Part shown: positions 14,076-29,355 of the stretch, in pieces
How the letters are laid out: every line of letters starts with the position of its first letter
Position numbering within the stretch: the stretch's first letter is position 1
NCBI GenBank assembly: GCA_001510335.1
Contig: LFFB01000001.1
Span: forward strand, 1 to 41,434
Direction: 5' to 3'
DNA: 41,434 nt
DNA from: Actinobacteria bacterium casp-actino2
GTDB taxonomy: Bacteria; Actinomycetota; Acidimicrobiia; Acidimicrobiales; Ilumatobacteraceae
Notes under the pieces: model-generated
Database searches by the model: none
What the model was told of the DNA's origin: nothing
The model's input: the letters and a program-made list of their open reading frames with translations, nothing else
Position numbers and translations under genes: made by a program

Positions 14076-14168
14076 GAACGCAGTGATGAGAGGCGTTCTA
14101 TACCTCTAAGAACGCAGTGATTAGAGGCGTTCTATACCTCTAAGAACGCAGTGATTAGAGGCGTTCTA
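14075..14168. repeat. 34-bp tandem repeat (about 2.7 copies) with hairpins at a convergent junction
   Basis: Copies start at 14076, 14110 and 14144 (last one 25 nt). Each copy carries AGAACGC and GCGTTCT separated by 11 nt (14075/14093, 14109/14127, 14143/14161), a 7-bp stem, and AGAGG/CCTCT pairs that allow an alternative fold. Copy 1 differs from copies 2 and 3 at one base. The array begins at the stop codon of the FAD oxidase and ends covering the thiolase stop codon (14155-14157), so it probably serves as a bidirectional terminator region. Confidence 0.9.
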
Positions 14169-15414: not shown

Positions 15415-16617
15415 TTAGACGCCGACGATGACGGATGAGCCGTGGCCGAAGAGGCCTTGATTGGCGGTAATTCCCAGCTTGGCGTTCTCGATCTGGCGAC
15501 CTTCCGCCTGACCACGCAACTGCCACACCAGCTCGCACACCTGGGCGATCGCTTGGGCCGGAATCGCTTCACCAAAGCACGACAAACCACCACTGGGGTT
15601 CACCGGAATCCGGCCGCCAATTGTGGTTGCGCCCGAACGCAACAGTCCTTCAGCTTCACCAGGAGCACACAACCCCAGGTGCTCATACCAATCAAGCTCA
15701 AGAGCCGTCGACAAGTCGTACACCTCGGCCATCGAAAGATCTTCGGGGCCAACTCCGGCTTCTTCATAAGCATCCCAACAAATGGAATCTTTAAATCCGC
15801 GGGCCGGCGGGGCAACAACAGCCGATGAGTCGGTTGCAAAGTCGGGCATTTCTAGAAGTGTCTGCGGATAGGTCGGCGTACTTGTGCTGACCGCCTTGAT
15901 GCGCGGCACACCTTTCAGTGATCCGAGATGCTTTTCGGCGAATGCTCGACTCGTCACGATCATCGCAGCGGCACCGTCGGATGTCGCGCAAATATCAAGC
16001 AAGCGCAAGGGGTCGCTCACCACCGGGCTATTCAAAACATCTTCAACAGCGTTCTCTTTGCGGAAACGCGCGTATGGATTATTCAGCCCGTGCAAAGAGT
16101 TCTTCACCTTCACCTGCGCAAAGTCTTCCGAAGTCGCACCATAAAGATCCATACGACGGCGAGCGAATAGCGCGAAGTACGCCGGGTTGGTCGCACCTAA
16201 AAGATGGAAACGCAACCAGTCGGGATCATTCTTCCGATCACCGCCACCAACTGGGGCAAAAAATCCCTTCGGCGTCGTATCGGCGCCAATCACCATTGCC
16301 ACATCGCAAAAGCCCGCCAGAATTGAGGCGCGTGCAGTTTGCAAAGACATCGCACCACTCGCACACGCCGCATAGCTTGACGAAACGCGAGCACCGGTCC
16401 AACCCATCTTTTGCGCAAATGTTGCACCTGCAATAAAACCTGGGTAACCGTTACGAATGGTGTCGGCCCCCGCAACGTATTGAACATCTTTCCATTCGAT
16501 GCCCGCATCTTTCAATGCAGCACGAGCAGCAACCATTCCGTATTCGGTGAAGTCACGACCCCACTTGCCCCACGGATGCATACCTACACCCAAAACAACT
16601 AAATCACGATCACTCAT
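15415..16617 (-). CDS. Ltp/SCPx-type thiolase-fold protein, probable acyl-CoA aldolase partner
   Basis: 400 aa from the ATG at 16617, which overlaps the DUF35 stop (ATGA); an upstream open extension is not conserved-looking. The fold is thiolase: the nucleophile-position Cys is present (C85 in AACASG). However, the usual GHPLGATG histidine loop is replaced by FGEAIPAQ (about 348-355), and the C-terminal Cys-x-GGG motif is replaced by NQGLFGHGSS. This argues against ordinary Claisen thiolysis and fits the lipid-transfer-protein thiolases that pair with DUF35 proteins. In mycobacterial steroid degradation some such pairs (Ltp2 with a ChsH2 DUF35 domain) act as retro-aldolases (established). Here that role is inferred from fold and pairing only. 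Confidence 0.85.
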   Translation of the reverse strand: MSDRDLVVLGVGMHPWGKWGRDFTEYGMVAARAALKDAGIEWKDVQYVAGADTIRNGYPGFIAGATFAQKMGWTGARVSSSYAACASGAMSLQTARASILAGFCDVAMVIGADTTPKGFFAPVGGGDRKNDPDWLRFHLLGATNPAYFALFARRRMDLYGATSEDFAQVKVKNSLHGLNNPYARFRKENAVEDVLNSPVVSDPLRLLDICATSDGAAAMIVTSRAFAEKHLGSLKGVPRIKAVSTSTPTYPQTLLEMPDFATDSSAVVAPPARGFKDSICWDAYEEAGVGPEDLSMAEVYDLSTALELDWYEHLGLCAPGEAEGLLRSGATTIGGRIPVNPSGGLSCFGEAIPAQAIAQVCELVWQLRGQAEGRQIENAKLGITANQGLFGHGSSVIVGV

Positions 16618-17087
16618 TTTGCACCTCCAGCAACTTCGTCTTGAACTGCCGGTGCCCACACGTAAACCATGTAGTCAATGCCATCTTCGCGATACAGCAC
16701 ATCGGTTTCAAGTTGCATCCGCATTCCAACTTTCAGATCCTTTGCCAATATTCCTTTCGGCGCTTGACCCAGAACGATGATGCCTTCTTTTTCAAGTTGC
16801 ACCGCCACTAACGCGTATGGCTCAAATGGTTCGGCCGCACGATAAGGCAAAGGCGGAGCATAGCGATTCTCGGCATAACTCCAAACGGTACCGAAACGTG
16901 AAAACGGGGTCGCCGTCAACTCGTCGCTATCGCACAACGGACTCGGGCAGGCACCTTCGCGTGGCGGGAAAACATAGGTCCCACAAGCCGTGCACTGCGA
17001 ACCAATCAGATGCGGATTTTGATCAAGAGTAAACCAGCCTTCAATCGCTGGCACTTGGGATGCGTTACTCGTTGCGGTTTCTGACAC
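16614..17087 (-). CDS. DUF35 OB-fold / zinc-ribbon partner of Ltp thiolase
   Basis: 157 aa. A rubredoxin-like zinc ribbon has cysteines C32 and C35 (QCTACG) and C47 and C52 (ACPSPLC). It is followed by an OB-fold domain (FSRFGTVWSYAENRYAPPLP... ALVAVQLEKEGIIVLG). DUF35 proteins bind acyl-CoA and partner with thiolase-fold enzymes encoded next door. The 4-nt overlap with the Ltp gene indicates translational coupling and probably a complex. The GTG start at 17087 lies inside the TCTGAC-N5-GTCAGA operator, 6 nt after a TAGTCT -10 box, so the mRNA is probably leaderless and repression would act right at the transcription start. Confidence 0.88.
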   Translation of the reverse strand: MSETATSNASQVPAIEGWFTLDQNPHLIGSQCTACGTYVFPPREGACPSPLCDSDELTATPFSRFGTVWSYAENRYAPPLPYRAAEPFEPYALVAVQLEKEGIIVLGQAPKGILAKDLKVGMRMQLETDVLYREDGIDYMVYVWAPAVQDEVAGGAK

Positions 17088-17096
17088 ATCGTCAGA
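17080..17096. promoter_or_regulatory. Operator copy 1, TCTGAC-N5-GTCAGA, at DUF35-Ltp promoter
   Basis: Perfect 6-bp arms with a 5-nt centre (ACATC). It spans the DUF35 start codon, and its right arm overlaps the -10 box. It is identical in both arms to three other copies at catabolic promoters in this window. Confidence 0.8.
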
Positions 17097-17099
17097 CTA
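17094..17099 (-). promoter_or_regulatory. -10 box of leaderless DUF35-Ltp promoter
   Basis: TAGTCT on the minus strand, 6 nt before GTG 17087; partly inside operator copy 1. Confidence 0.5.
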
Positions 17100-17125
17100 A
17101 CCAACAACCGCAGATCATCACCGAT

Positions 17126-19528
17126 TCACCGAACGGTTTGCAAGTCAAGCAGTGGAATGATTCCAGCCTTGACGACAGCGTCAAGGTCACTTTGGAGCAT
17201 GTGCACTCCATCGCCGCGCAACGAGCCCGGTGTCGCTTCTGCGGCCACGACCATGCTCGACCAGTCGACCGAATAAATCTGCGGCCATCGGGTCAGCCAC
17301 GTTTGCATCAGGGCATTCCAAGCCACAACTCGATCCAATTGAGCGAATTGCGCACCACCCAAAGCGCCGCCGTGAATCTCGGGACTATTCAATAGGAGCA
17401 GTTCAATACCTCGTTCATCACACGCGACGACTAATTCTTCCATCGCTACATCGTGCTTCTCTACAAAAAGTGGATCTTTGATCGTGTACCAATTCTCATC
17501 GTCAACATACTTTTGTTCTGCTTGCTCTGGAACCGAATAGACCATCACCACAACTGATGGCGCAAATGATTCAAATGCGTCATCCCACTCTGGGTGCAAA
17601 GTGGGACAATTCGTCATATCAAATTCGGCGCCATCCCACCAGCGAACTCGCGCAGCTTTAACAAGAGGACAATTTCGTCCTCCTGCCCAGAGCACGCTGT
17701 ATCGATCACCAGCAACGTTGTTGATTGCTGCGGAAATTCCGTACGAAGTGGAATCTCCAATCACCATGACTCGATCACGACGATCTTCGCCTTGGAGTTT
17801 GGCATCAACAAAAGCTAATTGCGTGGCCAGTTCCTCCATAGAAGGTTGGTGCAGAGTGATCGCTTGATCCAGTCGTAAATCAGCATCATCTAGTTGGCCG
17901 CTAAACACATCGGTTTCGCCGTAATCAACCACGATGACCGGGATCGTTACAAGTGGTTGCAAAATATCGTCGACGATTTCTGCACTCAACTGAATCTGCA
18001 ATGGCAATCCTGATTCGTTGACATTCCCGAGAGCTATCTGCACATTGCTTTGCAATTCAGCCAGCAATTTTCGTTCGGCTCGACCAACAGAAAGAACCAC
18101 AACATCTGGCTTTGACTGGAAAATGAGCCGTTGCGCAACAGACGAAAACGATTCGCATCCTTCAATCGCTTCTGCGCTTGGCCGAATCGCGCAACCAGGT
18201 TGAATACCACTCACTATGACAATCGGAATCGAATCACTGATTGCGGTTTTTATGTCGGAAACGACAATGGATTCACTGCCAAGAACCAAAATCTTCAATG
18301 GTTCGCGGGTCGGCACTTCTGATGTAATTGAAGTGCTCGGTTGCGTAAATTGCACCAACTCATTTGGCGCATTTACTCCGGCCAAAGCGACTGGGCCACT
18401 GGGCGATACGGCGGCGATCACGATGAACGCCACCACCATTGACCCGATCATTCCAACGCCTGCCCACTTTGGCTTCGGCAATAATTTGCGGAACCGTATG
18501 GGGTTCTCGATCAGCCAGGCTGAAAGGCACGCAAAAGCAAACGTGACACCAATTCGAACCAACGAAAGTGCAAAGCCATCAAATCCCATTCGGTCTTGAT
18601 TAAGAACAACAAAGACCGGCCAATGAAAGAGATACAACGAGTAGGTGATCTTCCCAACTGCGACCATTGGCCGAGACGACATCAACTTTCGGATCGGACC
18701 AGGAACCAAAACCGAAACAATGAGTAGACACGAGATCAATGAAAACGCGCTCAGGCCACCTTGGTACAACCAATTGTCTGAAGTGTGTGCGTGAGTCGCG
18801 ATGTAGACGTAGGCGCCTAATGCAACAATCCCCGTCAATGCAATGATCTTGGCCCATACTCCAGCCAATTGACGACTGACCGGAATTGCCAACGCCAGCA
18901 AAGCACCAATCAATAATTCGGCTGCACGCGTATGCGTTCCGTAGTACGCCAAGTTCCGTGATTGAGTCAACACCATTGCCGCGACACTCGCTGCGGCTAA
19001 TACAACAAGAACTGGGGCGAGCATTTTGCGCCAACGCAGCAGAACGATCATCAGCAGCGGAAAGACGAGATAAAACTGTTCTTCAATGGCTAAAGACCAG
19101 AAGTGCAAAACCGGTGATGGTGCCGACTCAAACAATTGTGCGTACGTTGTGCCAGCAGTAGCGAAACGCCAATTGGCCGAATATCCGAGCGCCGCGAACA
19201 AATCGCCCCGAAGGCGCTCGCCATCCAACAGACCACAGACAGCAACTATTGCGATCGCGATCAAACAAACAATCGACCCTGGGGCAAGTCGACGTAATCG
19301 ACGCGACCAGAACCGCTTGAGGTCAACTTTCCCGGCTCGGGCATGATCGGCCAACATCACCTGGGTAATCAAATAACCCGACAAGGTGAAAAACAGCGAA
19401 ACTCCAAAAGCTCCGCCAGGCACGAATGACCATCCAAGGTGAAACGCCATCACCGTGATGACGGCGAGTGCGCGAAGGCCATCTAGCCCAGCGACATACT
19501 CAATTCCCCCGTGATTGCGATCCCCCAC
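17126..19528 (-). CDS. Acyltransferase-3 / SGNH fusion (OafA-like O-acetyltransferase)
   Basis: 800 aa membrane protein. Residues 1 to ~370 form an acyltransferase-3 domain with about ten hydrophobic helices, the catalytic-type His in MAFHLGW (H30), GVSLFFTLSGYLIT and HFWSLAIEEQFYLVFP. The C-terminal ~240 residues form an SGNH hydrolase-like domain with VMVIGDSTSYG and the Asp-x-x-His pair in GDGVHM (D773, H776). Such proteins O-acetylate extracytoplasmic glycans or cell-wall polymers, moving acyl groups across the membrane. It starts at a GTG 6 nt after a TATCCT -10 box. It separates two operator-controlled catabolic units without being obviously part of them. The glycan target cannot be told. 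Confidence 0.9.
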   Translation of the reverse strand: MGDRNHGGIEYVAGLDGLRALAVITVMAFHLGWSFVPGGAFGVSLFFTLSGYLITQVMLADHARAGKVDLKRFWSRRLRRLAPGSIVCLIAIAIVAVCGLLDGERLRGDLFAALGYSANWRFATAGTTYAQLFESAPSPVLHFWSLAIEEQFYLVFPLLMIVLLRWRKMLAPVLVVLAAASVAAMVLTQSRNLAYYGTHTRAAELLIGALLALAIPVSRQLAGVWAKIIALTGIVALGAYVYIATHAHTSDNWLYQGGLSAFSLISCLLIVSVLVPGPIRKLMSSRPMVAVGKITYSLYLFHWPVFVVLNQDRMGFDGFALSLVRIGVTFAFACLSAWLIENPIRFRKLLPKPKWAGVGMIGSMVVAFIVIAAVSPSGPVALAGVNAPNELVQFTQPSTSITSEVPTREPLKILVLGSESIVVSDIKTAISDSIPIVIVSGIQPGCAIRPSAEAIEGCESFSSVAQRLIFQSKPDVVVLSVGRAERKLLAELQSNVQIALGNVNESGLPLQIQLSAEIVDDILQPLVTIPVIVVDYGETDVFSGQLDDADLRLDQAITLHQPSMEELATQLAFVDAKLQGEDRRDRVMVIGDSTSYGISAAINNVAGDRYSVLWAGGRNCPLVKAARVRWWDGAEFDMTNCPTLHPEWDDAFESFAPSVVVMVYSVPEQAEQKYVDDENWYTIKDPLFVEKHDVAMEELVVACDERGIELLLLNSPEIHGGALGGAQFAQLDRVVAWNALMQTWLTRWPQIYSVDWSSMVVAAEATPGSLRGDGVHMLQSDLDAVVKAGIIPLLDLQTVR

Positions 19529-19534
19529 GGGGTC

Positions 19535-19540
19535 AGGATA
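19535..19540 (-). promoter_or_regulatory. -10 box of leaderless acyltransferase promoter
   Basis: TATCCT on the minus strand, 6 nt before GTG 19528. Confidence 0.5.
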
Positions 19541-19579
19541 GTTGGGCGAATGTTCAGCGAATATGTCTCACCAACGATT

Positions 19580-19596
19580 TCTGACACGGCGTCAGA
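19580..19596. promoter_or_regulatory. Operator copy 2, TCTGAC-N5-GTCAGA, at acyl-CoA dehydrogenase promoter
   Basis: Perfect arms, centre ACGGC. The palindrome centre (19588) is 27 nt upstream of the first base of the TAAGGT -10 candidate, i.e. over the -35 region. The alcohol dehydrogenase promoter has the same 27-nt distance. Confidence 0.8.
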
Positions 19597-19614
19597 TTTT
19601 TGATCGACTGCGAC

Positions 19615-19620
19615 TAAGGT
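19615..19620 (+). promoter_or_regulatory. -10 box candidate of acyl-CoA dehydrogenase operon
   Basis: TAAGGT, 10 nt before ATG 19631; would give a leader of only a few nucleotides. Confidence 0.4.
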
Positions 19621-19630
19621 TCGTCACCGT

Positions 19631-20779
19631 ATGGATCTCAACGAAACCAGTGAAGAGTCCACATTCCGCGCTGAGGCGCGGGCCTGGCTTGAGGCCAACG
19701 TGCCCACTTCTCCACTTCCTAGCTTTGACACCGAAGAAGGCTTCGCCCTCCATCGTGTGTGGGAAAAAAAGTTGTACGAGGGTCGCTGGTCGGCCGTGTC
19801 GTGGCCTGTTGAGTACGGCGGCCGCAACGCCGATTACATCAAGTGGTTGATTTTTGAAGAGGAGTATTACCGAGCGGGTGCGCCCGGTCGAGTGAATCAA
19901 AACGGCATTTTCTTACTCGGCCCCACCATTATGGAAGTCGGCACCGAAGAACAAAAAGCCAAGTTCTTGCCCTCTATGGCCTCATCAGAAATTGTGTGGG
20001 GTCAAGCCTGGAGCGAGCCCAATGCCGGCAGCGACCTGGCGGGTATTCGTAGTAAGGCAACTCGCGATGGTAATGAATGGATTTTAAATGGCCAGAAAAT
20101 TTGGGCGAGCCGTGCCGTATGGGCTGACTGGTGTTTCGGAATCTTCCGCACTGACCCGACTGCCGATCGCCATCGGGGTTTGACCTTTATTCTGTGTCCC
20201 CTTGATCTGCCTGGTATCACTGTTCGACCCATCGCACAACTTGATGGCGATACTGGATTTGCCGAAATCTTTTTTGACGATGTACGCGTTCCGTTAGCGA
20301 ATACTTTGGGCGAAGAAAACAAAGGTTGGGGTGTCGCCATGGCGACTGCTGGCTTTGAACGTGGCGTGAGTTTGCGTAGTCCCGCACGATTCTCTGAGGC
20401 TGTCAACCGCTTAATTCATTTGTGGCGCACTTACGCCGACCCAACAGATACTGCACTTTCAGATGCTGTCACTGATGTCTGGATGCAGGCCGAGGGTTAC
20501 CGATTACACACGTATCAAACCGTGACCGGAATGCTTGAAGGTCGGGCAATTGGGGCCGAGGCAAGCCTCAACAAAATCTTCTGGAGTGAGATGGATGTGC
20601 GCATCCATGAAATCGCGCTGCAGATCCTTGGACCCGAATCCGAACGTATGGAAGGACCCTTTGAACGCTGGGTTGACGGCTTCTTGTTTTCATTGAGTGG
20701 TCCGATCTACGCCGGAACCAACGAAATTCAACGCAACATCATCGCTGACCGCGTGCTGCAATTGCCGAAGGGAATGTGA
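19631..20779 (+). CDS. Acyl-CoA dehydrogenase, probable catalytic subunit of a heteromeric pair
   Basis: 382 aa, complete acyl-CoA dehydrogenase fold. The FAD/substrate segment is QAWSEPNAGSDLAGI; the middle domain has NGQKIWASRAVWADW; the C-terminus reads GPIYAGTNEIQRNIIADRVLQLPKG. The MCAD-type catalytic Glu position (IYEGT) is Ala here. E243 in AGFERGVS is at the alternative position used by isovaleryl-CoA and several steroid FadE dehydrogenases, so it is the likely base (inference). The second dehydrogenase gene follows after 4 bp, as in the alpha2beta2 steroid-side-chain dehydrogenases (FadE28/FadE29 type). An operator palindrome and a short-leader promoter lie just upstream. The chain or ring specificity is unknown. 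Confidence 0.92.
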   Translation: MDLNETSEESTFRAEARAWLEANVPTSPLPSFDTEEGFALHRVWEKKLYEGRWSAVSWPVEYGGRNADYIKWLIFEEEYYRAGAPGRVNQNGIFLLGPTIMEVGTEEQKAKFLPSMASSEIVWGQAWSEPNAGSDLAGIRSKATRDGNEWILNGQKIWASRAVWADWCFGIFRTDPTADRHRGLTFILCPLDLPGITVRPIAQLDGDTGFAEIFFDDVRVPLANTLGEENKGWGVAMATAGFERGVSLRSPARFSEAVNRLIHLWRTYADPTDTALSDAVTDVWMQAEGYRLHTYQTVTGMLEGRAIGAEASLNKIFWSEMDVRIHEIALQILGPESERMEGPFERWVDGFLFSLSGPIYAGTNEIQRNIIADRVLQLPKGM

Positions 20780-20783
20780 CGTC

Positions 20784-21746
20784 ATGAAATTTTCATTTAC
20801 CGATGATCAACGCCTCTTCGCCGAGGGTCTTCGCGATTTATTGTCGAATGAGTGCACTCCCGCTCATGTTCGTGAGGCTTGGGAAAATCACACCGGACAC
20901 ATTCCACAATTGTGGACCCGCCTCTCCGAGATGGGCGTGCTCTCGATGCTCGTTTCCGAATCGGCCGGCGGAATGGGTGGCACGTTGATTGATGCCATTT
21001 TGTTATTCCAAGAATTAGGTCGAGCAGGCGTTCCCGGACCGGTGCTCGAACACATGGCGGTGGCAGCACCTGCACTTGCGAATACTTCGTGGGGGCCCTC
21101 ATTAGTTGACGGTTCGCAGATTGCAACACTTTGGGTTGACAACATTCCATATGTTGCTCACGCCCAAGTTGCCAATCTTGTTTTACGCAACGAAGCAGTC
21201 ATTACTGGCTTTTCGACCAGCGATGCTCATGGCATTGACGGCGGACGTCAACTGTTCACCATTTCTGGCGGAACTGAAACAAGTGCGTCTGCTGAAGTTT
21301 TCGGACTACCCGCATCAGATGTCATGGCACTCGCAAGTGCCGCTTATTTAATCGGTGCATCAGAGCGCATGATCGAAGTCGCTGCCGAATATGCGCGTCA
21401 ACGCGAACAATTCGGCAAGCCCATCGGGTCTTTCCAAGCCGTCAAACACCTCATGTCTGATGCGTTACTCAAAGTTGAATTCGCCAAAGCGCCTACTTAC
21501 CGAGCCGCATGGAGCGCAAGTACTGGTGCTGCGACGGCAGCTCGTGACATCAGCATGGCCAAGGCTCTCGCCAGTGAAGCCGCTTACCGAGCGAGTCGTT
21601 CAACCATGCAGGTGCACGGCGGCATTGGTTACACCTGGGAAGCCGATCTTCAACTGTGGATGAAGAAGTCGTGGGCGCTCATGCGCGCTTACGGCGATGC
21701 AACCTTCCATCGCCGTCGCGTTGGCGCTTCAGTACTCAGCAAATAG
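20784..21746 (+). CDS. Acyl-CoA dehydrogenase, probable partner subunit
   Basis: 320 aa, shorter than the first subunit. It has the N-terminal helical domain (MKFSFTDDQRLFAEGLRDLL), a compact middle domain, and the C-terminal four-helix domain with REQFGKPIGSFQAVKH and MQVHGGIGYTWEADLQLWMKK. The end of the chain has LMRAYGDATFHRRR in place of the IYEGTxEIQR segment, so it lacks the usual base and probably serves as the non-catalytic FAD-binding partner. ATG 20784 lies 4 bp after the stop of the first subunit gene. The frame is open further upstream inside that gene, but MKFSFTDDQ is the canonical start. It converges with the SurE-like gene, 14 bp away. Confidence 0.9.
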   Translation: MKFSFTDDQRLFAEGLRDLLSNECTPAHVREAWENHTGHIPQLWTRLSEMGVLSMLVSESAGGMGGTLIDAILLFQELGRAGVPGPVLEHMAVAAPALANTSWGPSLVDGSQIATLWVDNIPYVAHAQVANLVLRNEAVITGFSTSDAHGIDGGRQLFTISGGTETSASAEVFGLPASDVMALASAAYLIGASERMIEVAAEYARQREQFGKPIGSFQAVKHLMSDALLKVEFAKAPTYRAAWSASTGAATAARDISMAKALASEAAYRASRSTMQVHGGIGYTWEADLQLWMKKSWALMRAYGDATFHRRRVGASVLSK

Positions 21747-21760
21747 TTCGGTCAGTTATC

Positions 21761-22657
21761 TCAGTCTGCGAATGGTCCGCCGGTGATGGGCAGTTTGGTA
21801 ATCGTGACATACCCATTTTGGAAGCCACTCACATCTCCAGTGGGCTCAACTGTTGATGCACAATTGTTGGCGTTGTAATCACGAGTACCCATTGACTCAA
21901 TCGGCACTTCGATTACTCCTCGAATTTTCAGGCCCTCAGCACACGTCGGAGCGTTGATACTGGCGAATTCGGTCACTGGGGTTCCATCAGCACGAGCGAT
22001 CAGTTCATCACGATGTTCCTCAATCCATTTCACGGCTGCATCGGCTGCCGTCGGATAATCCGGAGAATCAGCCAATCCCTGACTCACTGCAATTGATGGA
22101 ATATTCCGCTGGGCTGCAGCGCGCGCCGCCCCAACTGTGCCCGACAACGAGACGATTTCCAGCGAATAGTTCTGTCCATTGTTAATTCCAGAGACCACAA
22201 GATCGGGTACAAAGTCAATACCGCCTTGATCAATGGCCCACACCATGCTGTCGGCAGGGAAACCAGCAACTGCTTTGGCGGCGTAACCGCTCTTGGTTGT
22301 CGCATCGGTAACCGTCAAAGCACCTTCGGTCGTTTTGCTGCCACTACCACTTTGATTTTCAAGCGGCGCAACGACGGTGAGTTCAACATTGTCGAGTTGC
22401 AGCAATGCCTGCACGATCACATCAATACCATCGGCACCAATACCGTCATCATTCGTCACCAAAATTTGCAACGGTTCTGTGACTTCAGTCGTCGTCGGAG
22501 CTTCGGTCACCGGAGCATCAGTCGTCGGAGCGTCAGTAACCGGTACTTCCGTTTCAACAACTGAAGGATCAGAGGCGTTGTTCGAACTATCGCCACTCGA
22601 GCAGGCCACTAAACCTGATAGGGCGACAATGACACCAAGTGCAAAAGATCTACGCAT
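21761..22657 (-). CDS. Secreted SurE-like 5'-nucleotidase lipoprotein
   Basis: 298 aa from ATG 22657. A lipoprotein signal peptide (MRRSFALGVIVALSGLVAC, lipidated Cys19) is followed by a Thr/Val/Ala/Pro/Asp-rich spacer (about 30-60) with TDAPTTDAPVTEAPTTTE repeats. Then comes a SurE domain: ILVTNDDGIGADGIDV with the metal-binding Asp pair, VVAPLENQSGSG, PDLVVSGINNGQN, SLSGTVGAA and IAVSQG. SurE enzymes dephosphorylate nucleotides, usually in the cytoplasm; here the sequence predicts an extracellular membrane-anchored form, perhaps for phosphate or nucleotide scavenging. An open in-frame extension to 22774 is rejected because it would bury the signal peptide. Divergent from the TauE gene, with a palindrome between them. 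Confidence 0.87.
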   Translation of the reverse strand: MRRSFALGVIVALSGLVACSSGDSSNNASDPSVVETEVPVTDAPTTDAPVTEAPTTTEVTEPLQILVTNDDGIGADGIDVIVQALLQLDNVELTVVAPLENQSGSGSKTTEGALTVTDATTKSGYAAKAVAGFPADSMVWAIDQGGIDFVPDLVVSGINNGQNYSLEIVSLSGTVGAARAAAQRNIPSIAVSQGLADSPDYPTAADAAVKWIEEHRDELIARADGTPVTEFASINAPTCAEGLKIRGVIEVPIESMGTRDYNANNCASTVEPTGDVSGFQNGYVTITKLPITGGPFAD

Positions 22658-22712
22658 CAGAATCACAACTTTCTTTTTTGGACAGTCCCCAACTTTATAT
22701 TTCACCAATCGC

Positions 22713-22734
22713 GGCGACGGCATATGCCACCGCC
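22713..22734. promoter_or_regulatory. Palindrome between divergent surE-like and tauE-like genes
   Basis: A perfect 10-bp core GGCATATGCC is flanked by symmetric AC dinucleotides and GGCG/CGCC arms, giving 22 bp. It ends 16 nt before the TAGAAC -10 candidate of the tauE-like gene and could control either or both promoters. Confidence 0.45.
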
Positions 22735-22750
22735 AGTTCACCCCAGCGAC

Positions 22751-22756
22751 TAGAAC
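22751..22756 (+). promoter_or_regulatory. -10 box candidate of leaderless tauE-like gene
   Basis: TAGAAC, 6 nt before GTG 22763; the last base departs from TAnnnT. Confidence 0.35.
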
Positions 22757-22762
22757 TGTTAT

Positions 22763-23554
22763 GTGACAGTTCAAGCGACAGAAACTAGATCGCGACTCGC
22801 CATCGCTCTGGCCGTCGGTCTTGGTGCCGGCTTGCTCTCAGGACTGTTCGGCGTCGGTGGAGGCATTTTGATCGTGCCGGCCTTTGTTTTACTCCTCAAG
22901 TTTGATCAGCGCCTTGCTAACGGAACTTCTCTTGGGGCAGTTTTACCAATCTCTGTCGCAGGCCTCATTACCTACTGGACCCAAGACAACGTCGACTGGT
23001 TCATGGCGTTGTGGCTCGCCATTGGAGCCTTAGCTGGTGCAGTAGTTGGCACCAAGTGGATTCACATTCTTCCCAAAAAAGTTTTGGGCAATCTCTTTGC
23101 AGTCATGCTTCTCATCACCGCCATTCGTTTGTTCATTCCGTTGAACGCAGATGGTCGTGAAGCCTTGACAGTCTTTGCGGCGATTGCCCTTGTCTTTATT
23201 GGTTTCGTCACCGGAACGTTGGCCGGCTTACTTGGTATCGGCGGCGGCGTCGTCATGGTTCCGGCGATGTCTGTTTTCTTTAGCGAACTCAGCGTCGTTG
23301 CCAAGGGCACGTCAGTCGCAGTCATTATTCCAACATCTATGATGGGAACGTGGCGTAATTGGAAGGCCGACAACGTTGACCTGCGTGTCGCAAGCATCGT
23401 CGGTGTCTCTGGAATCATCTCGGCAATTGGCGGAGGAATCATCGCCGATCAGATGTCGCAAGATCTTTCCAATGTTTTGTTTGCTTCACTTGTTTTGATT
23501 GTCGCAATCCGAATGGTTTGGGACCTGCAACGTAATCCCGACAACAATCACTGA
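22763..23554 (+). CDS. TauE/SafE family sulfite/organic-anion exporter
   Basis: 263 aa inner-membrane protein with about eight hydrophobic segments. It shows the family's duplicated glycine-rich motif: LLSGLFGVGGGILIVPAF near residues 20-37 and LAGLLGIGGGVVMVPAM near 155-171. TauE/SafE proteins export sulfite, sulfoacetate or other small anions (family knowledge, mostly unproven individually). The TauD-family gene 4.5 kb away does not by itself link this gene to taurine metabolism. It overlaps the convergent LLM gene by 7 nt at the 3' end. Confidence 0.9.
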   Translation: MTVQATETRSRLAIALAVGLGAGLLSGLFGVGGGILIVPAFVLLLKFDQRLANGTSLGAVLPISVAGLITYWTQDNVDWFMALWLAIGALAGAVVGTKWIHILPKKVLGNLFAVMLLITAIRLFIPLNADGREALTVFAAIALVFIGFVTGTLAGLLGIGGGVVMVPAMSVFFSELSVVAKGTSVAVIIPTSMMGTWRNWKADNVDLRVASIVGVSGIISAIGGGIIADQMSQDLSNVLFASLVLIVAIRMVWDLQRNPDNNH

Positions 23555-24465
23555 CGCGAAGCAACAACCTCAGCAAGTTCTTCTATCATCGCAGGGTCGC
23601 TAGTTGCGGGAACAACAATGAACTCGTCTGCGCCTTCTGCTTCAACTTGATCAAGTAAGTCAACCAGTCGTGATTGCTCGTTGAGCGTCATCGCCTCTGA
23701 TAATGACTTCGCTAAATCAGGTGAAAACACATGCAAGTACGTTGCCGCAAAATCGCGCAAAGTTTCAGCAGCATTCGCGCCAAGTGCAACAAACGACCCC
23801 GTCACTAATCGAGGCTTATCGGTACGACCTGCGTTATTCCAAGCACTTTCTGTCGCCCGAAATAGTCGTCCGGCTTCACGAGAATCACCCAACAACGTAA
23901 AACCGCTAACGCCCACAGCCCACTGAGCCGCACGAGCTAACGACTTCGGACCCATTGCCGACGCCAAGACCGGCGGACCACCTGCCTGCAACGGGGCAGG
24001 CCCCACCTTCTCACCATCAGCAGCGACGCCGCCCGCCCACAGTCGCTTCAGTTCAAAAACTGCCTCATCGAGTCGTTTGTGGCGGCCAGCAAATGGCGAA
24101 CCCAATGCGGCATAGTCCTGTTGACGTCCGCCCACTCCGACCGCCACTTCAACTCGTCCGCCCGACACCACATCCATTGACGCCAGTTCTTTGGCCACGA
24201 GCGCCGGCGCATGCCAGGGCAGCACCGCCACGTTGACCAAAATTCGCACTCGCTCGGTCAGGACCGCGGCCGCTGAACACAGGGTAAAACCGTCCAAATT
24301 GTGAAAAGTGATGCGTTCACCTGCCGAAATACTTGAAAATGGGCCCGAATCCACTTCGCGGCACCATTCCACCAGTCGATTTCGGTCCAGACCGGTCGCC
24401 ATTTGCGGCAACGCCACGCCGACCGTCATTCGGGGCTTTGCTTGAGTCTGCTTAGGGGGAACCAT
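23548..24465 (-). CDS. LLM-class F420/FMN-dependent oxidoreductase (first)
   Basis: 305 aa luciferase-like monooxygenase fold: MTVGVALPQMATGLDRNRLVEWCREV start, ITFHNLDGFTLCSAAAVLTERVRI, the MDVVSGGRVEVAVGVGGRQQDYAALG segment, and GPKSLARAAQWAVGVSGF. Such enzymes use reduced F420 or FMN to oxidise or reduce diverse substrates. Start ATG 24465 is preferred because TACGCT lies exactly 6 nt upstream (leaderless); ATG 24429 is an alternative, and the open frame beyond 24465 runs through the promoter and operator. It is divergent from the operator-controlled amidohydrolase, so it may share that control. Substrate unknown. Confidence 0.85.
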   Translation of the reverse strand: MVPPKQTQAKPRMTVGVALPQMATGLDRNRLVEWCREVDSGPFSSISAGERITFHNLDGFTLCSAAAVLTERVRILVNVAVLPWHAPALVAKELASMDVVSGGRVEVAVGVGGRQQDYAALGSPFAGRHKRLDEAVFELKRLWAGGVAADGEKVGPAPLQAGGPPVLASAMGPKSLARAAQWAVGVSGFTLLGDSREAGRLFRATESAWNNAGRTDKPRLVTGSFVALGANAAETLRDFAATYLHVFSPDLAKSLSEAMTLNEQSRLVDLLDQVEAEGADEFIVVPATSDPAMIEELAEVVASRQ

Positions 24466-24471
24466 GCTCCG

Positions 24472-24477
24472 AGCGTA
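24472..24477 (-). promoter_or_regulatory. -10 box of leaderless LLM promoter
   Basis: TACGCT on the minus strand, 6 nt before ATG 24465. Confidence 0.5.
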
Positions 24478-24514
24478 GGTCGCCTCAGGCCGACAACGCC
24501 CATTGCACGCAGAA

Positions 24515-24531
24515 TCTGACGCGGCGTCAGA
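24515..24531. promoter_or_regulatory. Operator copy 3, TCTGAC-N5-GTCAGA, between LLM and amidohydrolase genes
   Basis: Centre GCGGC. The symmetry here extends to 9-bp arms (24512-24534, outer GAA/TTC), the most perfect of the four copies. Its centre is 18 nt upstream of the amidohydrolase -10 box and 46 nt from that of the divergent LLM gene. Confidence 0.82.
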
Positions 24532-24540
24532 TTCGGGTGC

Positions 24541-24546
24541 TACCCT
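24541..24546 (+). promoter_or_regulatory. -10 box of leaderless amidohydrolase promoter
   Basis: TACCCT, 7 nt before ATG 24554. Confidence 0.5.
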
Positions 24547-24553
24547 CAGACTC

Positions 24554-25762
24554 ATGCGCGAATTGCCAAAAATCATCTCGGTTGACGACCACATCACTGA
24601 ACCAGCGACTGTCTGGTCGGACCGCCTTCCCTCGAAGTACGCCGACGTCGGACCACGAGTCCACCGCCTGCCCGTAAAGCAAATGACGTTCGTCGGTGGA
24701 ACCTTCACCGCCATCCCCGGCGAAAAAGGTGAAGAGGGCCCGTTGGCCGATTGGTGGTTCTACGAAGACCTCCGTCGTCCACTCACTCGACTCGACACCG
24801 CTGTCGGTTTCTCACGTGATGAAGTCATCTTAGCGGGCATCACCTATGACGAAATGCGTCAAGGTAGTTACAAACTCAAAGAACGTCTCGAAGACATGGA
24901 CACTGCAGGCATTGAAGCTTCATTGTGCTTCCCCACCTTCCCGCGATTCTGCGGACAGACTTTCTACGAAGCCAAAGACAAAGAACTCGCCATGTTGTGT
25001 GTACGTGCGTACAACGACTGGATGGTTGAAGAATGGTGTGGCGAATCAGGCGGACGTATGTTGCCGTTGTGCATTATTCCGTTGTGGGACCCAGTAGCTG
25101 CTGCTGCCGAAGTACGTCGCAACGCAGCACGAGGTGTTCACGCAGTGTGCTTCAGCGAAATCCCCACCAACCTCGGATTGCCCAGTATCCATGACAAAGA
25201 TGGATACTGGAAGCCCTTCTTCGCTGCTTGTAACGAAACAGCAACAACAATCAACATGCATATTGGTTCAGGATCAAAGATGCCGAGCACTTCACCTGAT
25301 GCGCCCGCAGCTGTTGGCTCAACACTCACGTTCGCGAACTGCTGCTTCAGCATGGTCGATTGGCTCATGAGTGGTGTCTTCACCGAATTCCCCAATCTCA
25401 AAATTGCGTACAGCGAAGGCCAGATCGGTTGGATTCCGTACATCCTCGAGCGCGCCAACAACGTATGGGAAGAGAATCGTGGTTGGGGCGGCATCGCCGA
25501 CAAAGTTTTGGTTCCACCGAGCCAGTTGTTCAAAGAGCACATCTACGGCTGTTACTTCGATGACCCGCACGGCTTGCGTTCACTCGAAGAAATCGGCGTC
25601 GACAATGTCACCTTTGAATGCGATTACCCGCACTCAGATTCGACGTGGCCACACACTGCCAAGATTGCTGCAGAGCAGACCCGCGAACTCAGCGATGAGG
25701 TCGTGTACAAGTTGATGCGCGGCAACGCCATCAAGATGCTCAGCATTACGCACCTCAAGTAA
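24554..25762 (+). CDS. Amidohydrolase-2 family metal-dependent hydrolase/decarboxylase
   Basis: 402 aa TIM-barrel protein. The N-terminal VDDHITEP carries the Asp-x-His metal site typical of the ACMSD/LigW-like amidohydrolase 2 family; NMHIGSG supplies a mid-chain His, and CDYPHSDSTWPHT the late Asp/His cluster. Members decarboxylate or hydrolyse aromatic and cyclic acids, and many homologues occur in actinobacterial lipid-catabolic regulons. ATG 24554 is chosen over an in-frame TTG at 24503 that would place the operator inside the coding region. It is followed after 2 bp by an acyl-CoA synthetase and is probably co-transcribed with it. The specific reaction is not predictable. Confidence 0.88.
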   Translation: MRELPKIISVDDHITEPATVWSDRLPSKYADVGPRVHRLPVKQMTFVGGTFTAIPGEKGEEGPLADWWFYEDLRRPLTRLDTAVGFSRDEVILAGITYDEMRQGSYKLKERLEDMDTAGIEASLCFPTFPRFCGQTFYEAKDKELAMLCVRAYNDWMVEEWCGESGGRMLPLCIIPLWDPVAAAAEVRRNAARGVHAVCFSEIPTNLGLPSIHDKDGYWKPFFAACNETATTINMHIGSGSKMPSTSPDAPAAVGSTLTFANCCFSMVDWLMSGVFTEFPNLKIAYSEGQIGWIPYILERANNVWEENRGWGGIADKVLVPPSQLFKEHIYGCYFDDPHGLRSLEEIGVDNVTFECDYPHSDSTWPHTAKIAAEQTRELSDEVVYKLMRGNAIKMLSITHLK

Positions 25763-25764
25763 TT

Positions 25765-27321
25765 GTGTTGACCATCCCGCAAGTAGTGCGGGCCACCGCG
25801 AAGTTCGGCGAACGTGAAGCTTTAGTTGACGGCTCACGACGTTGGTCTTTCATTGAAGTCGTCCACGAAATCGAATCGGCAGCACGCGCCTTCATTGCCC
25901 AAGGTCTTGGACATGGTGACCGCGTTGCGATTTGGGCGCCCAACAGTGCCGAATGGATTTTTGCTGCGCTTGGCGCTCAACTGGTCGGTGGAGTTTTAGT
26001 ACCAATTAACACCCGCTTCAAGGGCCACGAGGCGGCGTACGTCATTGAACGAAGTGGCGCCAAGTTTCTATTTTGTTGCAACGATTTTCTCGGCACCAAC
26101 TACGTCAATGAGCTACGTCAGGCAGGCGAAAACACCGAATGCCTTTCGAACATCATCGTGATTTCAGGCAATGCCGCCAACGACGATCAGACTTGGTCGC
26201 AATTCATTACCAGCGGCTCAACGACATCAGACGCATTGGTTAAACAGCGCGAATCACAAGTACTTCCAGAAGATCTCTGCGACATCATTTTCACATCCGG
26301 AACAACCGGAAAACCAAAGGGCGTGATGTCGCGCCACGATCAAACAATTCGCGTCTTTCTTGAATGGTCCAACATTGTTGGCCTGAACGAGACTGACCGC
26401 TACTTAATCGTCAACCCGTTCTTTCACACCTTTGGATACAAGGCCGGTTTCCTCGCATGCCTATTGCGTGGTGCCACAATGGTGCCCGTACCCGTCTTTG
26501 ACGTTCCATCGGTTCTGCAAAAAATCAGCGACGAAAAGATTTCGGCACTTCCAGGTCCACCCACTTTGTATCTCACAATTCTCAATCATCCCGACCGGGC
26601 CAAGTTTGATCTGTCTTCGTTACGTCTCGCTGTCACTGGTGCTGCCGCTGTTCCCGTTGAGATGATCAAACGAATGCGCGATGAATTGAACTTTGAAGTG
26701 ATCTTGACTGCGTACGGCCTCACCGAATCAACGGGCACCGTCACAATGTGTCGCGCCGAAGATGATCCCGTCACAATCTCAACAACCAGTGGTCGCGCAA
26801 TCACCGATGTCGAAGTTCGAGTCGTCGATGAAAACAATCTTGAGGTAGCACATGGACAGTCTGGCGAAATCGTTTGCCGTGGCTACAACGTGATGCCTGG
26901 ATACTTTGCCGATCCAGAGGCCACGGCACAAACAATCGATGCTGATGGGTGGCTACACACTGGCGACATTGGTGTCATGAACGAACATGGATACATCACG
27001 ATCACCGATCGACTCAAAGACATGTTCATCGTCGGAGGCTTTAATGCATACCCGGCAGAAATTGAAAATGAATTCATGAATCATCCAGCAATTGCACAAG
27101 TCGCAATTGTTGGTCGCCCCAACGAACGTATGGGCGAAGTTGGACATGCATTCGTGGTGAAGCGCCATGATCAACGCGTTGACATTGACGAACTGTTGAA
27201 TTGGGCGCGCAATCGAATGGCGAACTACAAGGTTCCGCGATACATCACATTTGTTGATGCACTTCCCACCAACGCCAGCGGCAAAGTTCTCAAATTTGAA
27301 CTGCGAAATTCTGTTAGATAA
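25765..27321 (+). CDS. Acyl-CoA synthetase (AMP-forming, FadD-like), first
   Basis: 518 aa ANL-superfamily ligase that activates a carboxylic acid as acyl-AMP and transfers it to CoA. Motifs: P-loop IIFTSGTTGKPKGVM, AYGLTESTGTVTMC, DGWLHTGDIGVMNEHGYITITDRLKDMFIVGG, and the C-terminal catalytic lysine in NASGKVLK. GTG 25765 begins 2 bp after the amidohydrolase stop, so translation is likely coupled; no separate promoter is seen. Its TAA abuts the TTA complement of the convergent TauD stop with zero spacing. Substrate class is inferred only from the island (fatty, terpenoid or steroid-derived acid). Confidence 0.92.
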   Translation: MLTIPQVVRATAKFGEREALVDGSRRWSFIEVVHEIESAARAFIAQGLGHGDRVAIWAPNSAEWIFAALGAQLVGGVLVPINTRFKGHEAAYVIERSGAKFLFCCNDFLGTNYVNELRQAGENTECLSNIIVISGNAANDDQTWSQFITSGSTTSDALVKQRESQVLPEDLCDIIFTSGTTGKPKGVMSRHDQTIRVFLEWSNIVGLNETDRYLIVNPFFHTFGYKAGFLACLLRGATMVPVPVFDVPSVLQKISDEKISALPGPPTLYLTILNHPDRAKFDLSSLRLAVTGAAAVPVEMIKRMRDELNFEVILTAYGLTESTGTVTMCRAEDDPVTISTTSGRAITDVEVRVVDENNLEVAHGQSGEIVCRGYNVMPGYFADPEATAQTIDADGWLHTGDIGVMNEHGYITITDRLKDMFIVGGFNAYPAEIENEFMNHPAIAQVAIVGRPNERMGEVGHAFVVKRHDQRVDIDELLNWARNRMANYKVPRYITFVDALPTNASGKVLKFELRNSVR

Positions 27322-28143
27322 TTACACGTTGTAGATCGTGGCGCGACGGGCACGACGGCGTTGCCCGTGGTAATCATTTAAGGCGTAATGCATTGTGTAA
27401 CGGTTATCCCACAGTGCGGCATCGCCCGAGGTCCACTTCCACCGAATCTGCAACTCGGGTCGTTCTGCCGTCTGGTTGATGACCTCAAGGAGGTGCATGC
27501 TCTCCATTGGCGTTAATCCGACAATCGAGTTCGTCCAACCGCGATTAACAAACAGAACTTTCTCGCCGGTCACGTGATGTTCCCGCACCATCGGATGCAC
27601 TGCGGTCCCGGTCTTTGGTGGACGGCCATGCATGGCATTGAGTCCGCTGATGAAATCTTGCACCGGAGTGCTCAAAGAATTGAAGGCCTTGATTTGATTC
27701 GACCACATGGTGTCGCCGCCAGAGGTCGCGGCAATCTCCATCACAAACATCGACCCGATTGGCGGATTACCAGTGAAAGTCACGTCGGTGTGCCACACCG
27801 CGGTCTGACGAGGGTCGAGTTTCAGCTCTGTGTCCAACACCAAGATTTCGGGGAATCCCTCATCGCGCAAAGACGGTGCGTTGCGGTAATCGCCACCGGC
27901 TTCGGTGGTCGCCGCAATGTGGTTTCCGAAGAGTCGCGCCAAGCGCATTTGATCGGCGGGGGCCAAATTGGCTCCAGGGAAAAACAGCACTAGGTGTTCG
28001 GCCCAAGCCGCCTTCAGATCGACCGCAATTTCGGCAAGGGCTTCGTCGCTCAACTTGGTGACTTCAAGACCCTCAACGACCGCCCCAAGAGCGCCCGGAA
28101 GTGGTGAAATTGCAATCTTTGAGCCAGAAATCAAATTGGTCAT
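27322..28143 (-). CDS. TauD/TfdA-family Fe(II)/2-oxoglutarate dioxygenase
   Basis: 273 aa. The iron-binding triad is visible: H118-x-D120 in WHTDVTF and distal H252 in TMHYALNDYHG, followed by the Arg-rich stretch (RRRARR) that holds the 2-oxoglutarate-binding Arg. The N-terminus IAISPLPGALGAVVEG is typical. Reaction type: oxygen-dependent hydroxylation, often releasing a leaving group (sulfonate, ether, quaternary amine). ATG 28143 is preferred because TACGGT lies 6 nt upstream; ATG 28173 would add 10 residues and also has an AAAGG upstream, so it stays possible. Divergent from the alcohol dehydrogenase operon across operator copy 4. True substrate unknown; taurine use is not implied. Confidence 0.88.
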   Translation of the reverse strand: MTNLISGSKIAISPLPGALGAVVEGLEVTKLSDEALAEIAVDLKAAWAEHLVLFFPGANLAPADQMRLARLFGNHIAATTEAGGDYRNAPSLRDEGFPEILVLDTELKLDPRQTAVWHTDVTFTGNPPIGSMFVMEIAATSGGDTMWSNQIKAFNSLSTPVQDFISGLNAMHGRPPKTGTAVHPMVREHHVTGEKVLFVNRGWTNSIVGLTPMESMHLLEVINQTAERPELQIRWKWTSGDAALWDNRYTMHYALNDYHGQRRRARRATIYNV

Positions 28144-28149
28144 AGGCGC

Positions 28150-28155
28150 ACCGTA
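28150..28155 (-). promoter_or_regulatory. -10 box candidate of leaderless TauD-family gene
   Basis: TACGGT on the minus strand, 6 nt before ATG 28143. Confidence 0.42.
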
Positions 28156-28184
28156 CAACGGTTCGGGCACCATTGAAAGACCTT

Positions 28185-28201
28185 TCTGACTCGCCGTCAG
28201 A
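28185..28201. promoter_or_regulatory. Operator copy 4, TCTGAC-N5-GTCAGA, between TauD and alcohol dehydrogenase genes
   Basis: Perfect arms, centre TCGCC. Its centre (28193) is 27 nt upstream of the TAGAGT -10 box of the alcohol dehydrogenase operon, the same geometry as copy 2. Confidence 0.82.
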
Positions 28202-28219: not shown

Positions 28220-28225
28220 TAGAGT
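28220..28225 (+). promoter_or_regulatory. -10 box of alcohol dehydrogenase–TetR operon
   Basis: TAGAGT; the transcript would carry a short leader with GAGGGGGAAA as ribosome binding site before ATG 28252. Confidence 0.45.
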
Positions 28226-28251: not shown

Positions 28252-29355
28252 ATGAAGGGCATCGTTTACAACGGGACCACAACCGAACTAGTCGACGGAC
28301 TCACACTTCGCGCTCCTGGCCCACGAGAAGTCGTGGTTCAGGTAGCAGCCGCCGGCCTGTGCCACAGCGACATCTCATATATGAGCGGCATGTACCCCGT
28401 TCCTTCTCCTGGCGTGTGTGGCCACGAGGCTGCCGGAGTCGTTGCCGAAGTTGGCAATGCCGTCACCCATGTTCAACCCGGCGACCACGTCATCATCGCT
28501 ACGCTTGCTGCCTGCGGATTTTGTCAATACTGCATGGACGGTCGACCAACGGCGTGTCGAGCAACTCTTGGTAACTGGAGTCAACCATTCACATTGAATG
28601 GTGATCCCATTTACAACTTCGCTGCCACCAGTGCGTTTGCTGAAAAAACCCTCGTACGTGATGTGCAGTGCGTCAAGATTCCGAAAGATGTTCCGCTCAC
28701 GTCGGCTGCACTTGTTGGTTGCGGTGTCGTCACCGGAATGGGTGCGGTTTTCAATCGTGCCAATGTCAAGCGTGGACAGTCGGCACTTGTGTTTGGTGTT
28801 GGTGGAGTCGGACTCAACGTCATCCAAGCACTCAAGGTACAAGGCGCCACCACCATCATCGCGGTTGACACCGTTCCAGAAAAAGAAGCACTCGCACGTC
28901 AGTTTGGCGCGACCCACTTCTTAGATGGCCGTACCGCCGACGTCATCGCCGAAGTCGGTGCCATCATGCCCTTTAACGAGTCAATGCCCCGCGGACCGTT
29001 CAATGCCGGCGGAGTGAACTGGGCTTTCGATTGTGTCGCTCATCCGGCAGTAACTCGCAATGCTCTTGAATGCCTCGATTGGGAAGGCACCGTTGTCGTC
29101 ATCGGCGTTACTAGTCAGACCGCAGAATTCTCTGGTCTGTACACGCGTCTGACACAAGTTGATCGTGGCATCATCGGCTGTCGTTACGGAACCATTAGTC
29201 CACAACGCGACATTCCGTACATCATCGATCTGTACCGCCGCGGCGAAGTGTTGCTTGACGAACTCGTGAGCGCAACTTTTCCCCTTGCCAATTGGGAAGA
29301 CGCCGTTCATGGGCTCGAGAGCGGCAACGTTGCTCGCGCTGTCATCACTTTCTAG
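28252..29355 (+). CDS. Zinc-dependent alcohol dehydrogenase (MDR family)
   Basis: 367 aa. Catalytic zinc ligands C37 (GLCHSD) and H58-E59 (CGHEA); structural zinc cysteines C88, C91, C94 and C102 (ACGFCQYC...AC). The cofactor site GVGGVGLNVIQ is followed by an acidic residue at the end of the next strand (AVDTV), favouring NAD over NADP. Oxidises an alcohol to an aldehyde or ketone. ATG 28252 follows GAGGGGGAAA at good spacing; the in-frame TTG at 28237 lies within the leader. First gene of a five-gene operon (alcohol dehydrogenase, ligase, SDR, SDR, TetR) controlled by operator copy 4. Confidence 0.93.
   Translation: MKGIVYNGTTTELVDGLTLRAPGPREVVVQVAAAGLCHSDISYMSGMYPVPSPGVCGHEAAGVVAEVGNAVTHVQPGDHVIIATLAACGFCQYCMDGRPTACRATLGNWSQPFTLNGDPIYNFAATSAFAEKTLVRDVQCVKIPKDVPLTSAALVGCGVVTGMGAVFNRANVKRGQSALVFGVGGVGLNVIQALKVQGATTIIAVDTVPEKEALARQFGATHFLDGRTADVIAEVGAIMPFNESMPRGPFNAGGVNWAFDCVAHPAVTRNALECLDWEGTVVVIGVTSQTAEFSGLYTRLTQVDRGIIGCRYGTISPQRDIPYIIDLYRRGEVLLDELVSATFPLANWEDAVHGLESGNVARAVITF

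Follow-up and report, generated by a model that had tools for sequence, protein, structure and literature searches.

Contig LFFB01000001.1 of the draft genome of Actinobacteria bacterium casp-actino2 (Ilumatobacteraceae, Acidimicrobiia) carries a gene for a TetR-family regulator and four copies of the palindrome TCTGAC-N5-GTCAGA, all within positions 1 to 41,434, the stretch that was analysed here and is called the window. We propose that this TetR represses steroid catabolism by way of the palindrome, and that, acting on a different operator, it would take the place of the mycobacterial pair KstR and KstR2. Judged from sequence comparison, the probability of this reading is about 0.8. An initial annotation of the window had taken the palindromes for the sites of a catabolic regulon. 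New beyond it are the steroid class of the substrate, the A/T flanks and inner R..Y bases of the site, its exact match in distribution to the TetR across the family and its spread to other phyla. The window's own genome (G000) is a 1.57-Mb draft of 68% completeness; other genomes of the family and order carry G numbers, and the loci that were read carry L numbers.

The pattern search returned four exact matches in the whole window, at 17080, 19580, 24515 and 28185. This agrees with the annotation, which had listed these copies and no other and had given their centres as ACATC, ACGGC, GCGGC and TCGCC, all read here as stated. No exact match arose in 100 dinucleotide shuffles of the window. When up to two mismatches were allowed, just two further places appeared (13150 and 36123), which is within chance. 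The own genome holds 14 exact sites, where 0.09 are expected from base composition, and no match to a reversed control pattern. TCTGAC is also the sole perfect 6-N5-6 palindrome that occurs more than twice (14 of 65; seven own-genome loci were read). A chance origin of the sites is thus ruled out by the shuffles, the mismatch scan, the genome count against expectation and control palindromes. Allowing one mismatch adds five places in the own genome, one of which (C51:11863) lies in phase with a tandem pair. On this contig (L009) the operators stand at 11821, 11842 and 11863, spaced by exactly 21 bp or two helical turns, the third copy having one mismatch; locus L241 has tandem operators at 4652 and 4673, also exactly 21 bp apart. 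The tandem operators sit between a lipoprotein gene and an MFS/ABC gene. Two one-mismatch sites on contig C23 of the own genome (11110 and 11219, 109 bp apart) have off-consensus centres.

One set of 101 family genomes was searched for both the pattern and the TetR protein, with an orthologue defined by an E-value of at most 8e-50. At least three sites were found in exactly the 20 genomes that encode an orthologue of the window TetR. The 81 genomes without it have 0 or 1 site each, and their best protein match is 7.9e-10 (Fisher p 1.5e-21 for the association, kinship ignored). Within six genera some genomes have the trait and others lack it, and in each case TetR and sites are present or absent jointly. 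Both are lacking in one of seven genomes of genus g1 (G022, 97% complete), and likewise in 6/7 of g13, 4/5 of g19, 5/6 of g20, 3/6 of g25 and 1/2 of g26; genomes of g1 and g22 hold 9–17 sites each. As a control, two of the other eight TetR proteins of the own genome were profiled as possible binders. The first occurs in 6 of the 20 motif genomes and 13 of the 81 others, the second in 16 and 53, so that neither is associated with the sites (p = 0.13 and 0.16). The annotation had named the TetR of the fourth operon as candidate regulator; its distribution in the family supports this choice, and on sequence evidence it is the predicted binder.

For the anatomy of the site, 93 exact copies from 11 genomes and 8 genera were read. 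All sites were taken from G000, G008, G021, G025, G026, G038, G066 and G099, and the congeners of the own genome contributed 11 of 15 (G069), 3 of 13 (G056) and 3 of 12 (G041); genes of G008 were called with the codon weights of G066. The fuller site is W-TCTGAC-R-NNN-Y-GTCAGA-W. Positions outside the selection pattern carry information: the flanks are A/T in 137 and 139 of 141 site-gene pairs and the inner bases R and Y in 134 and 135, counts that are not independent since divergent genes and congeners are included. Counted per site, 87 of 93 copies have A/T on both sides, and 84 have R..Y as inner bases. None of the nine lone sites in genomes lacking the TetR meets both the flank and the R..Y pattern.

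The sites are not scattered at random, an outcome that would have spoken against the regulon. At most 100 nt upstream of a called gene start lie 88 of the 93, and 82 at most 60 nt; of random positions drawn from these loci, 12.6% lie upstream of a start within 150 nt. Among the five misses, L236:2483 and L237:16848 correspond by alignment to the DUF35 promoter of the window and L238:18267 to its dehydrogenase promoter, while L213:4991 and L226:574 stay as misses. Over the 141 site-gene pairs, with the same lack of independence, boxes of the form TANNNT peak 6–10 nt (37 occurrences) and 17–19 nt (15) past the site, about one helical turn apart. The annotation had placed the palindrome centre 27 nt upstream of the -10 box in two promoters, and the arithmetic holds (centre 19588 to TAAGGT at 19615, centre 28193 to TAGAGT at 28220); this distance belongs to the 17–19 nt class. 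At operator 24515 a TACCCT box starts 18 nt from the site centre. These -10 boxes are consensus matches only, but the diverged congener G041 retains all three along with the site, and the stretch aligned there at 28185 spans exactly the site through the TAGAGT box. In G069 and G056 all four window sites recur at the promoters orthologous to theirs, three as exact copies and that at 19580 with one mismatch; in G041 three of the four do.

Site-adjacent genes of eight genomes were then classified (117 genes). Acyl-CoA dehydrogenases (16), short-chain dehydrogenases (SDR; 14) and enoyl-CoA hydratases (13) are the largest classes, followed by Amidohydro_2 proteins (9), luciferase-like monooxygenases (LLM; 7), OB_ChsH2_C proteins (5), AMP-ligases, aldehyde dehydrogenases, P450s and periplasmic binding proteins (4 each) and TauD proteins (3). 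Uptake genes are among these targets. The annotation's view that all four window sites lie at acyl-CoA catabolic promoters is borne out by these genome-wide and cross-genome data. Shared most widely, and site-adjacent in 7 of 8 genera, is the gene of an enoyl-CoA hydratase (PRK07938 above cut-off). Behind it come the genes of two CoA-transferase-like subunits and of an FMN reductase-like protein, and an SDR (PRK07856) is usually near on the other side. From gene order we take the two PRK models to stand for EchA20 and Rv3549c; for the hydratase, no EchA20 match was present in the PDB table. The alpha subunit of the CoA-transferase-like pair matches 6co6 at 4.7e-98 against 2.1e-22 for glutaconate CoA-transferase, and the reductase-like protein has FabK as best match, as IpdC does. 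The shared operon is therefore assigned by similarity to the echA20-ipdA-ipdB-ipdC type, which acts on steroid rings C/D. In the parts of the papers available, the order SDR / echA20-ipdA-ipdB-ipdC belongs to the KstR2 regulon (PMC5380842), and a KstR2 motif of M. smegmatis lies between MSMEG_6000 and 6001, the same promoter as that of SDR/echA20 (PMC3068626).

IpdA was found in 19 of the 101 family genomes, namely 18 of the 20 TetR genomes and one of the 81 others (G011). A site is present at 15 of the 18 ipdA loci of TetR genomes, 14 times exact and once with one mismatch. The ipd operon of G011 (L265, G011:C91) has no site at up to two mismatches, and this genome encodes no TetR orthologue; the operon may be under another regulator there. 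Thus, the motif tracks the TetR more closely than the pathway.

Genes for the sterol side chain are likewise found behind the site. In the congener G069 (L240) the order is site, acyl-CoA dehydrogenase, 344-aa protein, acyl-CoA dehydrogenase, 140-aa protein, Ltp, P450 and thiolase. This thiolase scores above the cut-off as steroid 3-ketoacyl-CoA thiolase (FadA5 type), and the Ltp matches 6ok1 at 1.1e-180, which we take to be Ltp2. In the own genome, contig C14 has thiolase and P450 at its end, and C51 has a site and the dehydrogenase at its start; the gene order of G069 suggests that the two contigs adjoin. The own-genome P450 matches CYP125 at 1.7e-138. By these similarities a CYP125-FadA5-Ltp2-type operon is among the targets.

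The window TetR itself matches TetR_N with 26.8 bits (cut-off 24) and TetR_C_38 with 69.3 bits, which places it in the TetR family. Named NCBIfam TetR equivalogs did not apply (ScbR 32, FabR 30 and BetI 23 bits against cut-offs of 150, 151 and 118). The predicted structure has a mean pLDDT of 93.5, and its structural matches are TetR proteins. The nearest solved fold is EthR (3tp3; Z 19.4, root mean square deviation 2.5, 187 aligned residues, 19% identity), which is also the best profile match (8e-10). The acyl-CoA binders FasR, DesT and FadR follow at Z 15–16, and the KstR2 structure 4w97 ranks below EthR with Z 14.8 and 15% identity. A phmmer search at E-values up to 1 named no KstR2 chain; 3vpr, the structure of PfmR, was among the matches (1.8e-5). 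The helix-turn-helix residues ATFYQYF are near-invariant across 40 homologues.

The site was also searched around TetR homologues outside the family. The best 80 named relatives among the matches listed were used, and some of these loci end at contig ends. An exact site is present in 25 of the 80 loci, and the number rises to 43 when one mismatch is allowed. In the same loci, three control palindromes gave no exact match and at most 2/80 loci at up to one mismatch, with 0 or 1 per group. Loci from metagenome-assembled genomes (MAGs) of Actinomycetota have the exact site in 18 of 39 (21 of 39 at up to one mismatch), those of Myxococcota, Deltaproteobacteria and other Proteobacteria in 5 of 16 (L116, L120, L121, L127 and L144; 8 of 16) and Streptomyces-type loci in 2 of 25 (L154 and L166; 14 of 25). 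In the myxococcal locus L121 (6037–7708) a one-mismatch site is followed by a KshA_C Rieske oxygenase and then by the tetR homologue. When the myxococcal KshA-like protein was searched by blastp against the called genes of the loci, no match was obtained at 1e-8. A Pseudomonadales locus (L127) shows two sites, amidohydrolase, tetR, DUF35 and Ltp in order, and DUF35 and Ltp genes adjoin TetR homologues in Pseudomonadales, Myxococcota and Streptomyces loci. Plasmid homologues were matched in 35 records, of which three were opened. On a Sphingomonas plasmid the divergent region before the tetR homologue contains ACTGAC-N5-GTCAGT, with two symmetrical mismatches; no site lies close to the Azospirillum plasmid homologue, and the Streptomyces plasmid has only a distant two-mismatch place. 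Four MAG records titled Bifidobacterium breve (L088, L090, L112 and L117) encode a TetR 46–92% identical to that of the window; these titles look wrong.

Within the window, operator 1 (TCTGACACATCGTCAGA, 17080..17096; exact in G069 and G056, not aligned in the G041 stretch) lies upstream of the DUF35-Ltp operon and serves these genes on the minus strand only; on its other side a gene ends. The operon comprises a DUF35 protein with zf-ChsH2 and OB_ChsH2_C (16614..17054), an Ltp-type thiolase (15415..16617; PRK06059 above cut-off, longest open reading frame reaching 16659) and, possibly as last gene, a thiolase (14155..15309; PRK07801 above cut-off). Operator 2 (TCTGACACGGCGTCAGA, 19580..19596; one mismatch in G069 and G056, exact in G041) separates a minus-strand acyltransferase of family 3 with an SGNH-like part (17126..19528), whose start adjoins it, from a plus-strand pair of acyl-CoA dehydrogenases. 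The first of these is pimC-like (19631..20779; match below cut-off), and the second is nearest to IpdE2 (20697..21746; also below cut-off, real start probably past 20697). Operator 3 (TCTGACGCGGCGTCAGA, 24515..24531; kept in three congeners) stands between an LLM on the minus strand (23548..24465) and, on the plus strand, an Amidohydro_2 protein (24554..25762) and a FadD3-family acyl-CoA ligase (25765..27321; 759 bits, cut-off 657). Operator 4 (TCTGACTCGCCGTCAGA, 28185..28201; kept in three congeners) lies between a TauD-family dioxygenase on the minus strand (27322..28173) and the plus-strand operon of a zinc alcohol dehydrogenase (28252..29355), an acyl-CoA ligase (29374..30936), a short-chain dehydrogenase (30933..31769), the short-chain dehydrogenase PRK07791 (31782..32684; 462 bits, cut-off 373) and, immediately after it as last gene, the TetR-family regulator with TetR_N and TetR_C_38 (32684..33316), the proposed binder of the sites.

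These findings were compared with known regulators. The KstR operator, TnnAACnnGTTnnA, shows no evident resemblance to the sites, in which no AACnnGTT is seen by eye. In excerpts of the literature, KstR2 of mycobacteria and rhodococci is a TetR-type repressor of SDR / echA20-ipdA-ipdB-ipdC and FadD3 that responds to HIP-CoA (PMC5380842). The same targets in the same order are found here, at the ipdA loci and with the FadD3-family ligase behind operator 3, but the KstR2 consensus operator is AnCAAGnnCTTGnT (PMC3068626) and differs from TCTGAC-N5-GTCAGA, as the annotation had held. No CAAGnnCTTG was present at the ipd promoter in 19 ipdA loci, with one chance copy elsewhere in L269. KstR is described as a TetR-type repressor of side-chain genes in mycobacteria (PMC5380842), and genes of the CYP125, FadA5 and Ltp2 types follow a site here; its regulon includes rings A/B, for which no targets were found here, a search of 12 genomes for KshA_C giving a strong match in just one. 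EthR of Mycobacterium tuberculosis, the nearest fold, has other targets and, unlike the sites here, a larger operator described as not a classical palindrome (excerpt of PMC4482099). The TetR protein TTHB023 of Thermus thermophilus, which we take to be PfmR, comes close in its DNA. Its best-bound oligo has the half-sites CTGAC/GTCAG (excerpt of PMC7022988), but a spacer of 6 with a constrained CGATCG centre and fatty-acid gene targets, whereas the arms here are 5 apart, so that the operator CTGAC-N6-GTCAG does not apply. Lcin1 of Nocardioides simplex, given in part of PMC7593942 as TCCCGGT[C/G]ACCGGGA, is also different. A TCTGAC-N5-GTCAGA operator was not reported in titles or abstract starts among the literature matches listed, and the available part of PMC5790920 has no mention of Acidimicrob, Ilumatobacter or KstR.

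Taken as predicted operators of the TetR encoded at 32684–33316, the palindromes would most likely be bound by a TetR dimer at W-TCTGAC-R-NNN-Y-GTCAGA-W over the -35/spacer region, often between divergent genes. The bound protein would block RNA polymerase at sterol- and steroid-catabolic promoters, and in the simplest account a steroid-derived CoA thioester in the C-terminal pocket would release it. A single regulator, through a single operator, would then control the side chain (FadA5-, CYP125- and Ltp2-type), rings C/D (FadD3-family ligase, EchA20-, IpdAB- and IpdC-type), uptake genes and further enzymes of beta-oxidation. In this scheme the sites, their place at promoters, their joint occurrence with the TetR and the identity of the target operons are observed, whereas it is predicted that the TetR binds them, that it represses and does not activate, and what ligand it senses.

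Several results weigh against repression of steroid catabolism by this TetR. In the order, where up to 12 candidates were scored per genome, the link is looser: at a threshold of at least two sites, 50 genomes have both motif and TetR, 4 the motif only, 17 the TetR only and 177 neither, that is, 17 of 67 TetR genomes have fewer than two sites and 4 genomes have them with no TetR match. The sites used by the more distant homologues of the order (33–41% identity) may be altered ones. No exact site was found in G127, G176 and G211, which belong to a single genus and encode a TetR homologue with about 37% identity; a change of operator is possible in these. IpdA was found neither in the own genome, which is incomplete as stated, nor in G092 (87% complete), and 3 of the 18 ipdA loci of TetR genomes have no site (L255, L268 and L261, the last cut short). 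KshA_C was strong in only one of 12 genomes (G008), which leaves ring A/B degradation without support, and the LLM, TauD, amidohydrolase and SnoaL targets match no known steroid step. A site with at most one mismatch lies within 250 nt upstream of tetR in just 6 of 119 tetR loci, a set that includes some genes fetched twice.

Alternatively, the sites might be those of some other DNA-binding protein that is inherited alongside the steroid genes, with the TetR as a passenger. The distribution of IpdA nearly equals that of the TetR, any gene of the set would look associated, and of all remaining regulators of the genome the profiling covered two of the eight other TetRs. However, the TetR fits the sites better than IpdA does, as G011 illustrates, the sites recur near TetR homologues in other phyla, some directly before tetR, the two control TetRs do not match the site distribution, and the helix-turn-helix is conserved. 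We regard a passenger role as very improbable. Somewhat less improbable, though still unlikely, is that binding of the TetR to the sites activates transcription, or represses it in response to general fatty acyl-CoA, with the steroid genes only part of a broader acyl-CoA regulon. The many generic beta-oxidation enzymes among the targets and the acyl-CoA binders among the structural neighbours would suit this, but the family-wide regulon goes with IpdA and includes CYP125-, FadA5- and Ltp2-type genes, and a location over the -35/spacer region suits repression. The window TetR could also be an orthologue of KstR3 of Mycolicibacterium neoaurum, characterised as repressor of an aldolase-DUF35-acyl-CoA dehydrogenase operon of the sterol side chain in which it is encoded (excerpt of PMC10398937). 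The gene company is similar, with DUF35 and Ltp beside homologues in the loci named above. KstR3 acts on one operon and its deletion changed just seven genes according to that excerpt, far fewer than the 9–17 sites per genome in g1 and g22 would imply. We consider this orthology doubtful; if true, it would lower the novelty of the finding.

The regulation of steroid breakdown has been worked out mainly in mycobacteria and rhodococci. In the part of a review available, it is described as largely unknown in bile-acid-degrading Proteobacteria, with homologues of KstR1 and KstR2 absent there (PMC8399759). It is possible, and we suggest it tentatively, that TetR and operator form an old cross-phylum module for the control of steroid catabolism. 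In Acidimicrobiia it would place side chain and rings C/D under one regulator and site, and in Myxococcota, Gammaproteobacteria, Alphaproteobacteria and Streptomyces it would move together with genes of the DUF35-Ltp and KshA-like kinds, while mycobacteria serve the same promoters by KstR and KstR2. The SDR/echA20-ipd promoter is a clear candidate case of different lineages using unrelated operators at the same promoter. Read by exact match in a draft genome, the site would serve to spot a capacity for steroid degradation in uncultured bacteria of lakes and soils. It would also flag new pathway genes, among them the LLM, TauD, amidohydrolase, SnoaL and uptake genes, and the TetR-operator pair is a candidate biosensor for steroid-CoA.

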